NCBI RefSeq assembly: GCF_016806065.1
Contig: NZ_CP032405.1
Coordinates: forward strand, 2,880,001 to 2,944,000
DNA length: 64,000 nt
Source of the DNA: Rhizobium rosettiformans
Lineage (GTDB): Bacteria; Pseudomonadota; Alphaproteobacteria; Rhizobiales; Rhizobiaceae
Reading direction: 5' to 3'
Part shown: one piece after another, positions 10,430-15,655 of the stretch
How the letters are laid out: every line of letters starts with the position of its first letter
Position numbering within the stretch: the first letter of the stretch is position 1
Notes under the pieces: generated by a model
The model's input: only the letters and a program-made list of their open reading frames with translations
What the model was told of the DNA's origin: nothing
The model's database searches: none
Position numbers and translations under genes: made by a program

Positions 10430-10735
10430 ATGGATATCGAGTTTCCTGATCGGCATTTGGCCCTTATCGAGACAGAGAGTGCTGCGCAGACTAGGCTGCC
10501 TGTTGCGGTAATTCAGTCCGCGCGACTGCGCCTTAGTATGATACGCGCCGCACCTGATGTTCGAACTTTAAAGAATTGGCGAAGCTTAGGCTTGAGTCAG
10601 GGTGCCCCTGGTTCGTCAGAATACTTCGTTTCAGTGTCCCCGGAATGGGTCCTGAGTCTACGGATTGAGGAAGTCGATAACGCTATGGCTGTGATTGTGA
10701 ATTCCATTGAAGAGAAAGCTAGGGGGGCTGCTTGA
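10430..10735 (+). CDS. HigB/RelE-family-like toxin
   Basis: A 101-residue protein resembling HigB-type RNases of the RelE/ParE fold, which cut mRNA on the ribosome. The central part (LPVAVIQSARLRLSMI, then DVRTLKNW, then YFVSVSPEWVLSLRIEE) follows the order of HigB conserved blocks: an LP-x-helix, a D-L stretch and the 'sIrVn.qWRi.F' strand pair. The usual C-terminal DYH is absent (it reads VIVNSIEE), so catalytic competence is uncertain. No ribosome binding site precedes the ATG; promoter spacing suggests a leaderless mRNA. Its stop overlaps the next start by one base, a translationally coupled toxin-first order like higBA. Base composition is lower in GC than dapA, suggesting transfer. Confidence 0.65.
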   Translation: MDIEFPDRHLALIETESAAQTRLPVAVIQSARLRLSMIRAAPDVRTLKNWRSLGLSQGAPGSSEYFVSVSPEWVLSLRIEEVDNAMAVIVNSIEEKARGAA

Positions 10736-11862
10736 TGGCCAACCTCAATATGGTCGCGGTCGAGCCTCCTGGAGTGTTCATCAAGCTTGAGTTGGAAGCT
10801 CGGGGTTGGTCCCAGCGTGACCTTGCATTCATCCTTGGACAGACCGAGCAGCAACTGAATCCCCTTCTGTCCGGAAAGCGAGCCGTTACGCCCGATATGG
10901 CGCGTTTACTGGGCGACGCCTTTGGTGCGTCTCCACAGTTCTTCCTCAACCTTCAGAGTCAGTATGATCTCCAGAGTGCGAAGCAACCTGACCCGGCGGT
11001 GAGGACACGGGCTGAGCTGCAGGCGGTCTACCCTGTGCGCGAAATGATACGCCGAGGCTGGATTCATGATGGGGAAGCATCGCTGCTTCAACTTCAGATG
11101 GAGAGGTTCTTCGAAGTCGCGAATGATCAAGAAGCCAGTCGGGTCGCATTCGCCGCGAAGCGGACGCACTACGGTGAAACTCCGCCGCATCAACTTGCCT
11201 GGGTGTATCGGGTTCGGCAGCTTGCAAGTTTTCAGTCTGTTTCGCCTTTCTCTTCGGAAAGACTCCGGACTGCTTTGGCTAAACTCAGAGGACTGATGGT
11301 TGATCCCGAAGCGGTTAAGCACGTTCCTGAAATTCTATCGGATTGCGGTGTGCGGTTTGTTGTCGTTGAGGTTCTGCCTAACGCTAAGATCGATGGAGTG
11401 TGTACCTGGCTTGATGAAAATTCGCCCGTTATTGGGATGTCTACTTTGTACGATCGCCTCGATAACTTCTGGTTTGTGTTGCGCCATGAGATTGAGCACG
11501 TTCTAGAGGGACACGGAAAATCGTCGATTGGTATTGTTGATCACTTATCGGGTGAAAACGCCTCTGATAGTCTGTCGGACAGCGAAGAAGAACGTGCAGC
11601 CAACTTAGCTGCTGCTGATTTTTGTGTTCCGACGCAGAAGATGGAATCTTTCTATGCGAGAAAACATCCTTACTTCTCGGAGCGGGACGTAATTGGGTTC
11701 GCATCTTTGATGGGTGTCCATCCGGCTATTGTGGTTGGCCAGTTGCAAAAGCGCATGAAGCGATATGATTACCTTCGCAAGTATCAAGTGGCGGTAAGGA
11801 AGCATCTACCTGCCACAGCCGTGTGTGACGGATGGGGCCATGTGGCCGAAGCGCAACTCTGA
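10735..11862 (+). CDS. HigA-type antitoxin fused to an ImmA/IrrE-type metallopeptidase
   Basis: A 375-residue two-domain protein. Residues about 12-80 form an XRE/HigA helix-turn-helix (GWSQRDLAFILG, then LSGKRAVTPDMA, then GASPQFFLNLQ), which should bind the operator and the toxin. A linking helical region follows. The C-terminal half is an ImmA/IrrE-like Zn peptidase: HEIEH at 251-255 gives the HExxH site, and EEERAANLAAADF near 284-296 supplies the distal Glu. Plain HigA proteins are about 100 residues, so the peptidase is an added domain. GGGGGGC upstream is the ribosome site, inside the toxin gene. Inference: the peptidase may turn over the antitoxin or another regulator on a signal. Confidence 0.8.
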   Translation: MANLNMVAVEPPGVFIKLELEARGWSQRDLAFILGQTEQQLNPLLSGKRAVTPDMARLLGDAFGASPQFFLNLQSQYDLQSAKQPDPAVRTRAELQAVYPVREMIRRGWIHDGEASLLQLQMERFFEVANDQEASRVAFAAKRTHYGETPPHQLAWVYRVRQLASFQSVSPFSSERLRTALAKLRGLMVDPEAVKHVPEILSDCGVRFVVVEVLPNAKIDGVCTWLDENSPVIGMSTLYDRLDNFWFVLRHEIEHVLEGHGKSSIGIVDHLSGENASDSLSDSEEERAANLAAADFCVPTQKMESFYARKHPYFSERDVIGFASLMGVHPAIVVGQLQKRMKRYDYLRKYQVAVRKHLPATAVCDGWGHVAEAQL

Positions 11863-12693: not shown

Positions 12694-12789
12694 CTTCAAA
12701 ACGCACTGACGAGAAACTGCTCAGAACTCATGACCTGAGACCCGACTTCCCTCCAAATTTCGGGAGAGTCTTGGGTTTTCAATCTGGCC

Positions 12790-13629
12790 TCATGCGGCCT
12801 GTTTTTCCATAGCCATTTTCATTGCGAACTCGCTGGGGGTGATATTGCCCAGCGACGAGTGGGGTCTGTTCCTGTTGTAATCCTCCTTCCATGCAGTGAT
12901 GGCGGTGCGGGCCTGGGTGAGCGACGAGAACAGCGTCTCGTTCAGGCATTCGTCACGGAAGCTGCCGTTGAAGCTTTCGACGAAGCCGTTCTGCATCGGC
13001 TTGCCTGGGGCGATGTAGTGCCATTCGACCTTTGTCTCCTGGCACCATTTAAGGATGGCCATGCTGGTCATCTCCGTGCCGTTGTCCGAGACAATCGTCT
13101 TCGGCTTTCCCCGTCTGGCGATGAGGCTATCCAGTTCGCGGGCAAGCCTTGCGCCTGACAGGGATGTATCGGCGACCAGGCACAGGCATTCACGGGTGAA
13201 GTCGTCGACGACGGCCAGTACCCGAAAGCGGCGGCCGTCGGTGAAGGCATCGCTGACGAAGTCCAGGCTCCAGCGCTCATTGGGGCGTGAGGGCAGAGCC
13301 AGAGGACGCCTTGTCCCCAAGGCCCGCTTTCTGCCACCACGCTTGCGCACCGTCAGCTTCTCCTCCCGATAGAGACGCCGAAGCTTCTTCAGGTTCATGA
13401 CGATCCCCTGCCGGTCGAGCATGACGTGGATGCGGCGATATCCGAAGCGTCGGCGCTCAGATGCCACCTTCTTCATCGCCTCACGGATGGATGCATCGTC
13501 TGGCCGCACACTGCGATATCGCATGCTCGACCGATCCACCGACAAAACCTCGCACGCCCGACGCTGGCTCACTCCATGCTGCGCACAGACGTGAGCCACC
13601 GCATTCCGCTTCACATCGGGCGTCACCAT
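12790..13629 (-). CDS. IS3-family transposase OrfB (DDE integrase domain)
   Basis: A 279-residue catalytic half of an IS407-type transposase. After an N-terminal helix-turn-helix ([20 protein letters not shown]) comes the HTH_21 region, then the rve integrase core with the DDE triad: Asp in [10 protein letters not shown], Asp in [10 protein letters not shown], and Glu in [18 protein letters not shown]. In an intact element it would be made as a frameshift fusion with OrfA. Here its 5' end abuts the inserted IS110 element, so only unfused OrfB could be produced. Confidence 0.93.
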
Positions 13630-13696
13630 TAATGGGATGGTCCGCCTCGTCCTCCTGCCGCATCATGAGGCGGTCAAACCAAAGGAGGTTGTTGCT

Positions 13697-14749
13697 ATGC
13701 CTAAACGCAATGTACCGCGTCCCGCGGCGGTCTACGGGATTGATATTGGGAAGAACATCTTCCACGTCGTCGCATTGGAGAGCGACGGTACGGTCGTCCA
13801 ACGCGTTCGGTTCCGACGGGACACGTTGCTTCAGTTCTTCCAGAGGGCAGCACCGGCGATCGTCGGGATGGAATCTTGCGCAGGGTCTCAGTGGATCGCG
13901 AGGAAGATCCAGGCACTCGGTCACAAGGTACGGCTGATCCCAGCCCAGTTTGTGAAGCCATACGTCAAGTCGAATAAGAGTGACATCATCGACGCGGAGG
14001 CGATCGCTGAGGCCGCCACGCGACCAACGATGCGATTTGCTGCACTCAAGACTGAGGAACAGGCCGACCTTCAAGCCCTGCACCGGGTGCGTGACCAGAT
14101 GATCGGCACGCGGACGCGCCTGATAAACCAGATGCGGGCGTTCTGCCTCGAATATGGTGTGGCGCTACGGCAGGGTGCTGGTCTGTTCAAGCTCGACCTG
14201 CCCGAAGCTCTCAAAGATCCAGCAAACGATCTTTCGCCGGCAATGCGCAAACTGCTCGGCGAGCTGTTTGACGATCTGCGTCAGTTGGAAAAGCGGATTG
14301 CTGATGTCACGCGCGAGATCGAAGCAGTCGCTGATCGAGAGGATGCTGCACGTCGGCTCATGACAATCCCCGGGATCGGAGCTCTCGGTGCGACAGCACT
14401 GCTTGCTGCTATTGGAAACGGCAGACAGTTCCAGAAAGCGCGTGATCTGGCCGCATGGCTGGGCCTTGTGCCGCGAGAATATTCGACCGGAGGAAAGCAG
14501 AAGCTCCTCGGGATCAGCAAGCGAGGCAACCGGTATGTCCGTAAACTGCTGGTCCATGGTGCCCGATCCTGCTTCCGACACCTCGACCGAACAAAGGATC
14601 GACTGGGAAGCTGGCTGGATGGTCTTCAAGCCCGAATGCATCCAAACAAAGCTGTTGTCGCACTTGCCGCCAAAATGGCCCGGATAGTCTGGGTCGTCCT
14701 GACCAAACCTGGAGCGCTCTACGAACGCAGAGACCCTGCCTTCACCTGA
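13697..14749 (+). CDS. IS110-family (IS1111-type) transposase/recombinase
   Basis: A 350-residue RNA-guided recombinase. The N-terminal RuvC-like DEDD domain shows Asp in YGIDIGKNIFHVV, Glu in IVGMESCAG, and the DxxD pair in KSDIIDAEAIAEA. A coiled-coil segment follows (QLEKRIADVTREIEAV). The C-terminal Tnp domain has LMTIPGIGALGATALLAAIG and the catalytic Ser in REYSTGGKQKLLG. The ATG at 13697 has AAGGAGG 8 bases upstream; the frame opens earlier at 13637 inside the inverted repeat. It appears intact and is followed by about 220 non-coding bases, where IS1111 elements encode their guide RNA. Confidence 0.93.
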   Translation: MPKRNVPRPAAVYGIDIGKNIFHVVALESDGTVVQRVRFRRDTLLQFFQRAAPAIVGMESCAGSQWIARKIQALGHKVRLIPAQFVKPYVKSNKSDIIDAEAIAEAATRPTMRFAALKTEEQADLQALHRVRDQMIGTRTRLINQMRAFCLEYGVALRQGAGLFKLDLPEALKDPANDLSPAMRKLLGELFDDLRQLEKRIADVTREIEAVADREDAARRLMTIPGIGALGATALLAAIGNGRQFQKARDLAAWLGLVPREYSTGGKQKLLGISKRGNRYVRKLLVHGARSCFRHLDRTKDRLGSWLDGLQARMHPNKAVVALAAKMARIVWVVLTKPGALYERRDPAFT

Positions 14750-14810
14750 CGCTTTTGGTTCGATTGCAAGGCTCGGGAACAGTGATGACGAAACAGTGGA
14801 TCAACATGCC

Positions 14811-14973
14811 GTAAGCCCTGTGCAAAAAAGCGGGCTTTCGTGCCCGAACCATTTATTGGGAACGGCGTGTGCGGATCTCATCATGGCCTGGCTGCAACCG
14901 CAGCCCACTCGCGAGAGGCCGGATACATTTATGCAACTGGAATCGTCATTTACGATGTCGCGAACCCTTGCAC
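14811..14973 (+). ncRNA. Candidate bridge RNA / seekRNA of the IS1111-type element
   Basis: The non-coding right end of the element is where IS1111 members carry the guide RNA. A hairpin CGGGC-N6-GCCCG (14831-14846) is flanked by TGCAAAAAA (14821-14829) and ACCAT (14848-14852), with CCC (14816-14818) and GGG (14858-14860) able to close an internal loop. TGCAAAAAA is the exact complement of the right target flank (14993-15001). ACCAT equals the top strand of the left target flank (13625-13629). This split, one guide for each strand, is the known logic of these RNAs. A second hairpin ATCGT-N5-ACGAT (14942-14956) follows. The RNA boundaries and promoter are not determined. Confidence 0.55.
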
Positions 14974-15252
14974 GGACGAGGCGGACCATACATTTTTTGC
15001 AGCGACATCCTTCAGGATCGCATTGTCCAGCATGGCTTCGGCGAGAAGCTTCTTCAGTTTGGCATTCTCGTCCTCAAGCGCCTTCAGCTTGCGAGCATCT
15101 GACACGTCCATGCCGCCATACTTCGCCTTGTATTTGTAGAAGGTTGCATCCGAGATGCCGTGCTTGCGGCAGACATCAACCGTCTTCGCGCCCGCCTCCT
15201 GCTCCTTCAATATCCCGATGATCTGTTCTTCTGTGAACCGTGAACGCTTCAT
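14950..15252 (-). pseudogene. IS3-family transposase OrfA, 3' end replaced by the IS110 insertion
   Basis: The frame of 100 residues starts MKRSRFTEEQIIGILKEQE, the HTH_8-type DNA-binding domain of IS3 OrfA, with the leucine-zipper-like stretch KLKALEDENAKLKKLL at about 57-72. Native sequence runs to 14993 (about 86 residues, ending AAK). The remaining residues (NVWSASSVQGFATS) are read from the IS110 end. The A7 frameshift site that would fuse it to OrfB is split by the insertion. It is therefore an interrupted gene rather than a functional OrfA. Confidence 0.85.
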
Positions 15253-15313
15253 TCGTCCGTCTCCCTCATGTGACGGACTCTACCAAATTCCGGAGGAAGT
15301 TCAGGGGCTCAGG

Positions 15314-15655
15314 TCACTCAAGCTCAAGCCCGTTTTCGCAGAAGTCGAACTGAGCAGGTTCCGATTCACTGCCGTCTGCATACGTGGCCTTGACCCACTG
15401 CGCGCAGCTTTCGCCATTTGTGCTCTGATCCCAGACGAGATCTGCAGTCGATCCCGGCTTGAGGCCGCTTCCAATGTCGAAAGTACCCCAGGTGCTCTTG
15501 TCTTCGGACACCAGGATCCCGGTGATGGCCGAACTGGTCGTGTTCGTCGCCTTGAAAGAGAACTCATCGGCATGGGCTGCAATAACGGTCATCCCGCTTG
15601 CCGCCGCCCCGAGGGCGATTGCCAGTAGACCGTTGCGAACGTGTTGGAGATTCAT
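15314..15655 (-). CDS. Small secreted protein, stop codon supplied by the IS end
   Basis: A 113-residue protein with a clear signal peptide ([20 protein letters not shown]) and a mature part of about 84 residues. The pattern [13 protein letters not shown], then STWGTFDIG, then LKPGS, then CAQW, then YADGSE, then DFCENG resembles a family of small exported rhizobial proteins of unknown function; the two Cys could form a disulfide. The terminal codons run directly into the IS3 end, and the TGA stop is the first three bases of the IS. Joining the flanks shows the original end was LELEF and a TGA, so only the last Phe was lost. The 235 bases between this gene and smpB carry both promoters. Confidence 0.7.

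Follow-up and report, generated by a model that had tools for sequence, protein, structure and literature searches.

The non-coding right end of an IS1111-type insertion sequence in the analysed stretch of Rhizobium rosettiformans DNA (64,000 nucleotides; hereafter, the window) very probably encodes a two-loop seekRNA/bridge RNA that guides the DEDD transposase of the element to the A-run at the orfA/orfB overlap of IS3-family elements. Computational observations on the fold and placement of the RNA, the covariation of its loops with target and donor sequences, the clean insertion and the IS3 orfA/orfB context carry this reading.

The insertion sequence (1363 bp, forward strand) occupies positions 13630 to 14992 and was delimited by its pair of subterminal inverted repeats and its flanks, without target duplication. 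The left repeat (ATGGTCCGCCTCGTC; 13637-13651) and the right repeat (GACGAGGCGGACCAT; 14975-14989) form a perfect 15-bp pair (15/15 complementary), and outside them lie the left-end extension TAATGGG (7 nt, 13630-13636) and the right-end extension ACA (14990-14992). A 3-nt right-end extension is typical of IS1111. The 7-nt left extension is named as an IS1111 feature in the available text of Siddiquee et al. 2024 (PMC11187229). The transposase gene (13637-14749, forward strand) encodes 370 aa from the first ATG or 350 aa from the ATG at 13697 (IS1111 criterion, about 330-350 aa), and the profile search assigned it the domains DEDD_Tnp_IS110 (E = 1.6e-20) and Transposase_20 (E = 5.7e-26). Between the transposase stop codon and the right end of the element lie 243 nt of non-coding sequence. 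Four features of the IS1111 family (DEDD transposase, subterminal repeats with extensions, a long downstream non-coding region (NCR) and no target duplication) are present; the IS110-type layout of ISEc21 (upstream NCR, bottom-strand guide first) is absent, the NCR being downstream and the order of the guides opposite. This order, with the top-strand guide 5' of the bottom-strand guide, is that of IS1111 when the direct reading is compared with the available text of PMC11187229. A search of positions 13000-15400 against Rfam gave no matches up to E = 1. The sequence TTGCAC-17-CATAAT is readable across the joined ends, and a promoter consensus scan, run without a shuffled control, gave 5-10 of 12 in 43 elements.

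The element interrupts an IS3-family element on the reverse strand. The orfB half of this host (12731-13629, its end fixed by identity with a second copy) contains orfB at 12790-13629 with the rve and HTH_21 domains, and the orfA half (14993-15316, likewise delimited by identity with the second copy) carries the HTH_Tnp_1 domain. Direct reading and comparison with uninterrupted IS3 elements gave the left half of the target as GGGCGTCACCAT (13618-13629, forward strand) and the right half as TTTTTTGCA (14993-15001, forward strand), the antisense of the IS3 A-run. The insertion is clean: five uninterrupted IS3 relatives (L171-L175) read CACCAT|TTTTTTG, with no base lost or duplicated. In the sense direction the target is GCA AAA AA^A TGG TGA, the orfA stop codon lying a few bases past the junction and orfB being in the -1 frame. 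Programmed frameshifting is used by the IS3, IS630 and IS5 groups. In two of the uninterrupted relatives (L173 and L175), a single IS3 transposase CDS of 1100 nt is annotated, whose length, not being divisible by three, implies a frame change. The tetranucleotide CTCA (12727-12730; right copy, 15317-15320) is the likely target duplication of the IS3 element. The composite of IS3 and IS1111 (window 12727-15320) occurs twice in the same genome; the copies are identical where both exist, and the identity stops at the IS3 termini. CTCA stands on both sides of the window composite, and the second composite lacks a matching duplication, its orfB containing another insertion of about 1.24 kb. A third, diverged copy of the ends of the window IS3 (L176; G000:C2:238300-242600) shows 92-96% identity, and its middle matches neither the window IS3 nor the IS1111 element.

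The first-pass annotation of this DNA had reported guide-like matches between the NCR and the flanks, and direct reading found every one of them: TGCAAAAAA (14821-14829) is the complement of TTTTTTGCA (14993-15001), the hairpin CGGGC (14831-14835)/GCCCG (14842-14846) follows, ACCAT (14848-14852) is identical to 13625-13629, and ATACATTT occurs at both 14923-14930 and 14988-14995. In 20,000 dinucleotide shuffles of positions 14750-14974, the 9-mer arose in 0.36%, ACCAT in 21% and AAAAAA in 8.7%; with ACCAT required to follow within 40 nt, the same shuffles contained the 9-mer in 0.02% and AAAAAA in 0.27%. The annotation's caveat that the A-run lowers the weight of the match is right for the single matches, the order and spacing are unlikely by chance, and it is the relatives that decide.

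Relatives were collected from 394 genomes of the family, 385 of the class and 398 of the phylum, together with a contig scan that yielded at least 78 distinct loci. The repeats served to define their ends, a step that 100 loci passed (89 once duplicates had been taken out), and ill-defined or rearranged loci were removed by name before counting (8 in one set, 11 in another). The alignment comprised the divergent NCRs, that of the window element and those of six members of its clade, minus L159 (53 in total), and was thinned at 75% identity to 43 elements, in which covariation was evaluated by 12,550 column-site tests with 1000 permutations. The covariance model was built from 40 of the 43, with four members of the L144 lineage (see below) and without the window clade (window, L020 and L067). 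The clade set consisted of 66 loci among the matches listed (at least 60% identical, with at least one end read), 16 duplicates and the second copy of the own genome being excluded; per-position pairing was counted in 38 clade copies flanked by IS3 sequence to the left and right (39 two-ended copies minus L055).

The covariance model placed the seekRNA/bridge RNA core, with a target loop and a donor loop, at 14808-14936 of the forward strand (71.4 bits, E = 2.9e-17; MFE z = -3.3 for 14750-14973), the sole strong match in the 64-kb window (next match, E = 0.13). The model contains 12 base pairs, 9 of them with compensatory changes, and matched 21/21 further loci given to it (L057 and L201 at two places each). 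Built from 40 divergent IS1111 RNAs, it puts the target internal loop on 14821-14854, where the first-pass annotation had it. Single-sequence folds agree, with CAAAAAAG and AACCAUUUA opposite each other round the CGGGC/GCCCG hairpin, which also by direct reading stands between the two target guides (14831-14846, forward strand).

The expectation that loop sequence and insertion site vary together was borne out by the permutation test, in which loop columns covaried with the flanks across the 43 diverse elements. The bottom-strand (left) target guide, ACCATTT (14848-14854, forward strand), has the letters of target positions -5 to +2 and agreed with them in 31-39 of the 43 elements (z 5.8-9.8): 31 at -5/14848, 35 (z 8.6) at -4/14849, 36 at -3/14850, 38 (z 9.8) at -2/14851, 35 at -1/14852, 39 at +1/14853 and 36 at +2/14854. 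This 3' guide reaches two bases across the insertion point. At least four of five left-guide bases agreed with the own flank in 33/43 elements versus 33/1806 swapped combinations, and in 31/40 when the window clade was left out; the longest match of the whole NCR, calculated for 47 divergent elements, showed a smaller difference (own, 6.7 and 7.2; swapped, 5.4 and 5.5). For the top-strand (right) target guide, AAAAAAG (14824-14830, forward strand), which pairs with target positions +6 to -1, the counts were 30/43 at +5/14824, 28 at +4/14825, 23 at +3/14826 and 30 at +2/14827. The register of this 5' guide is ambiguous by one base, the signal being spread over two registers because the spacing to the hairpin varies, and the top scores (T+5/14824 and T+4/14825) are shifted by one base from the register used, which sets +6 opposite 14824 (23/43, z 4.2). 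The guides of L020, L021 and L084 are not pure A-runs and therefore fix 14829 opposite +1 and 14830 opposite -1. Other high covariation scores were trivial, arising from right-end columns inside the aligned NCR or from a shared core base.

Per-position pairing in the 38 clade copies defined which of the matching bases are constrained. Watson-Crick pairs were found at 14848 to 14854 in 36, 36, 33, 33, 24 (plus 7 wobble), 36 and 36 of 36-38 copies, and at 14829 to 14824 in 35, 36, 25, 34, 35 and 29 of 35-37, while G14830 faces target -1 with 14 Watson-Crick and 22 wobble pairs in 37 copies. Target position +3 stays unpaired in 12/37 copies, being C in 11 of them and A in one; position -1 is T or C and is mostly accommodated by wobble in both guides. 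The TGC at 14821-14823, which matches the GCA of the window IS3, is weakly or not constrained: 14823, 14822 and 14821 (opposite +7 to +9) form Watson-Crick pairs in 20, 22 and 13 of 37 copies, and GCA follows the T-run (+7 to +9) in 5/38. From these counts the A-run part of the originally proposed 9-base match stands as a real guide (AAAAAAG, 14824-14830), the TGC is mostly fortuitous, and the full 9 bases were rejected as the guide; likewise, the two guides of the proposed 9 + 5 match are real, and their functional extent is 6-7 + 7 bases. A preference for a bare T-run does not suffice for the window clade, ACCAT being equally constrained in the 38 copies; it was retained as a rival reading for the L144 lineage. 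Natural retargeting is seen within the clade: the guide is GCCGAAA with target TTTCGGC in L020, GAAAG with C|TTTC in L021, CGAAAG with C|TTTCG in L084 and UCCACUU with TCCAC|TT in L067. The target is thus readable from the RNA of the element, as the first-pass annotation had suggested; that this target is the orfA/orfB overlap of an IS3-family transposase is a point the annotation had not made. As a separate observation, two extra tandem 141-bp units stand after the L055 element, whose right end abuts its own target-guide DNA (ACCA|TTTATTGGG). The arrangement would fit an insertion that used the guide gene as target or, alternatively, slippage at a short homology.

The donor side, which had been called the weaker match, proved to be well supported. 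The donor guide ATACATTT (14923-14930, forward strand) repeats the letters of the right end, ATACA, and of the bases that immediately follow it, and 14924-14928 equal the right end plus the first left-end base in 41/43 elements for the own ends versus 205/1806 for swapped ends; an element end ACG goes with ACG in the RNA, ATA with ATA and AGA with AGA. A putative second donor guide, CTCATCATG (14877-14885, forward strand), would pair with CA|TAATGGG, the circle junction, if one wobble and one mismatch are allowed; a guide of this type pairs exactly in L067, and the evidence for this left donor guide is one strong column (14878 versus left-end position 6; 37/43, z 6.7). In L039, one extra 64-bp right-end unit is joined at the donor-guide mimic ATACA|T and is followed by a near-match, non-IS3 flank.

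Other copies with the same loops are not scattered over unrelated sites: the expected IS3 halves flank 39/41 two-ended and 23/25 one-ended clade copies, and in the 39 two-ended copies antisense orfB lies to the left and orfA to the right. The two-ended exceptions are L047 (orfB to the left and a target-like right flank without an orfA match) and L039 (outside IS3, at ATCAT|TATTTT), and the one-ended exceptions are L098 (a target-like left flank, no IS3 match) and L109 (no match). L039 and L055 were considered as copies at unrelated sites and set aside, since in each of them parts of the element's own right end are repeated in tandem. The clade copies share ancestry, so that 39/41 does not amount to 39 independent events. 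The best-segment identity of the host orfB to the window orfB ranges from 23 to 100% across the clade copies. The frame step from orfA to orfB in 31 clade copies was -1 in 19, +1 in 6 and 0 in 6, as judged from the longest open frames; some of the hosts are decayed and can mislead this reading. IS3 hosts of the TTCTTTCCC type read GGA AAG AAR at the junction and have no A7 run.

We propose that the RNA is expressed and bound by the transposase, and that transposition would proceed as follows. In the first internal loop, AAAAAAG would pair with the top strand across and to the right of the insertion point, and ACCAUUU with the bottom strand to the left of and across it; in the second loop, the donor guides would read the joined ends ACA|TAATGGG; and the guided DEDD transposase would then insert the circle at the site, with no bases duplicated. 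The target would be the antisense of the A-run at the IS3 orfA/orfB overlap, where a ribosomal frameshift presumably makes OrfAB (orfB being in the -1 frame in the window host). Such A-runs are probably used for frameshifting, and the insertion would silence the host element; the host would need the slippery site for its full transposase, and the site could therefore not easily mutate away. The guide is nearly fixed and the IS3 hosts differ; the mismatch at +3 and the wobble at -1 may let one RNA recognise many IS3 elements.

A second lineage was represented by L144, the third IS1111 element of the same genome (46% identity), which lies between orfA and orfB of another type of IS3 at the sense sequence ATAAAAA|AAGAC and whose host reads through the junction in one frame (step 0). 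A search for the L144 type in the 385 genomes of the class gave its own copy alone at E = 1e-100. Thirty-three loci of the lineage were examined. Thirteen were chromosomal and cleanly delimited (L144, L151 and 11 of 18 new loci, 7 with unresolved ends being dropped), and 20 were plasmid loci, picked before their flanks were seen from 40 listed of 61 records; the more distant L035, L037 and L163 were in neither set. Eighteen of the 33, the plasmid loci being among the matches listed, lie at orfA/orfB junctions, namely of IS3 in 5 (L144, L209, L219, L222, L233), of IS630 in 9 (L151, L200, L201, L203, L220, L226, L229, L231, L236; L203 with the orfA side only) and of IS5 in 4 (L211, L230, L234, L235). 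The Pfam domains on the orfB side of these hosts are rve, DDE_3 and DDE_Tnp_1. L227, with one weak match to IS5 orfB, was left out of the 18 and is among ten of the 33 loci without a host assignment. The frame step in the 18 was -1 in 8, +1 in 9 and 0 in L144; the step was +1 at every IS5 junction, where the sequence is GGAAAGGGGGG, AAAAGGGG or AAAGGGGG. Three loci (L218, L219, L220) have near-identical transposases and A-run guides, and their hosts are no recognisable IS, IS3 and IS630, with TCT/GCT|TTTTTTG in common; the RNA thus reads the run and not the family. In the orientation tested, a half-gene lay no more than 130 nt away in 19/33 L144-lineage loci (L227 included) versus 3/41 other divergent elements (L096, L121, L143), a control that favours our reading, its queries having been taken from L144-lineage flanks plus L163, L001 and L067 (self-hits excluded). 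A rule for all IS1111 elements was rejected, an IS3 or IS630 half-gene lying near 3/41 of the other divergent elements. The tree places the window clade with the L144 lineage in one 39-row group (support 94/96, short of the star mark of the program) that also holds elements of other targets; therefore, one origin with losses and repeated origins are both possible. In L205, L206, L217, L223 and L224, the right flank holds IS3 sequence in the opposite (sense) orientation, as though insertion had taken place upstream of orfA; they have GTGGAAA in the guide region and sites TGTTG[GA]|TT, and the IS3 5' end is perhaps their target. The divergent element L121 lies between IS630-type halves at the sense sequence TTTCAG|GATGAAGCC, which by eye may be the catalytic DE codons of IS630, reminiscent of ISEc21 in IS3.

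We lean towards the view that the frameshift signals of other insertion sequences have become the speciality of related IS1111 lineages (IS3 for the window lineage; IS3, IS630 and IS5 for the L144 type), which would make these lineages RNA-guided hyperparasites of a functional recoding signal. The target might instead be conserved IS3 coding DNA whose role in frameshifting is incidental, which is possible yet well short of probable. ISEc21 targets a different conserved part of IS3, the region of the second D codon of DDE (available text of PMC11187229), CACCAT is the start sequence of orfB, and the L144 host has no frame step; however, the second lineage sits at A-run or AAAGGGG junctions of three transposase families, with a step of -1 or +1 in 17/18. 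We consider it unlikely that insertion into another IS is simply harmless and that the RNA needs a T-run alone, frameshift sites being the T-runs that survive. This would suit L218, whose transposase and A-run guide almost equal those of L219 (IS3) and L220 (IS630) and which lies at an A-run without a recognisable IS, as do L221 and L208/L232, as well as the presence of 79 TTTTTTTG sites in the own genome. The window clade, however, also reads ACCAT on the left; 18/33 L144-lineage copies are at junctions versus 2/79 own-genome TTTTTTTG sites adjoining IS3 orfB (IS3 alone was scored, and IS density differs between replicons); and survival bias would not create guide-target covariation. In the L144 lineage, a bias towards copies that survive at harmless sites may still play a part.

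Descent of the occupied IS3 elements from one insertion spread by IS3 transposition (hitch-hiking) is improbable. Two identical IS3 and IS1111 composites exist in the own genome, with identity ending at the IS3 termini and CTCA on both sides of the window copy, but targeted re-insertion explains two local copies equally well, and the host orfB identity (23-100%) speaks against a single spread insertion. It is scarcely credible that the matches are chance and that the transposase protein itself recognises the site: AAAAAA (8.7%) and ACCAT (21%) are singly common in the shuffles, whereas the covariation in 43 elements, the placement by the covariance model and the swapped-target control all contradict it.

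For the RNA-guided insertion that we prefer, the mechanism and the family are already known (PMC11187229, PMC11208160), and RNA-guided parasitism of IS3 is not new (ISEc21), as far as the available texts of these sources go. According to the available text of Siddiquee et al. 2024 (PMC11187229), the window element resembles ISEc11, ISKpn4, ISPa11 and ISPst6, IS1111 elements with a seekRNA, in its downstream NCR, subterminal repeats and 7-nt left extension, and resembles IS1111 seekRNA elements in adding no target bases, in having the top-strand guide 5' and in the overlap of the guide matches in the target; the targets given there for these four elements are attC, a REP and GTGAAAATACTG, whereas that of the window element is the IS3 orfA/orfB overlap. 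It also resembles the bridge RNAs of IS110/IS621 and IS1111 in the available text of Durrant et al. 2024 (PMC11208160), with target and donor loops, left and right guides and, for IS1111, the RNA in the right end; unlike the window element, the IS621 group has the RNA in the left end, and IS621 targets REP elements. ISEc21 of the IS110 family (PMC11187229, available text) similarly homes by RNA guidance to a conserved coding stretch of the IS3 transposase, but it has an upstream NCR and the reversed guide order, hits the second D of DDE, and has IS3 members alone named as its targets. IS4321/IS5075 are likewise IS1111 elements that parasitise mobile elements, their target being the terminal inverted repeat of the Tn21 family (as worded in a title in PMC11187229). 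No description of IS110/IS1111 elements targeting frameshift sites was found in titles and abstract starts of open-licence articles other than preprints, which is weak evidence of absence, and the words frameshift and slippery are absent from the main texts of PMC11187229 and PMC11208160.

If the RNA acts as proposed, the target of a natural RNA-guided transposase would be readable from one genome and checkable by covariation, including which of the matching bases are real. The targets suggest a rule by which elements of this kind pick sequences that recur in other mobile elements and are indispensable to them, here the recoding junction of the transposase genes of IS3 and, in the related lineage, of IS630 and IS5. 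How guide specificity evolves, and how it acts as a brake on IS activity, would become directly testable, and the naturally retargeted guide-target pairs could be used for mapping mismatch tolerance. Elsewhere in the window, the product of an ORF at positions 10732-11862 shows what looks like an XRE-type helix-turn-helix together with an HEIEH motif, and by eye is ImmA/IrrE-like.
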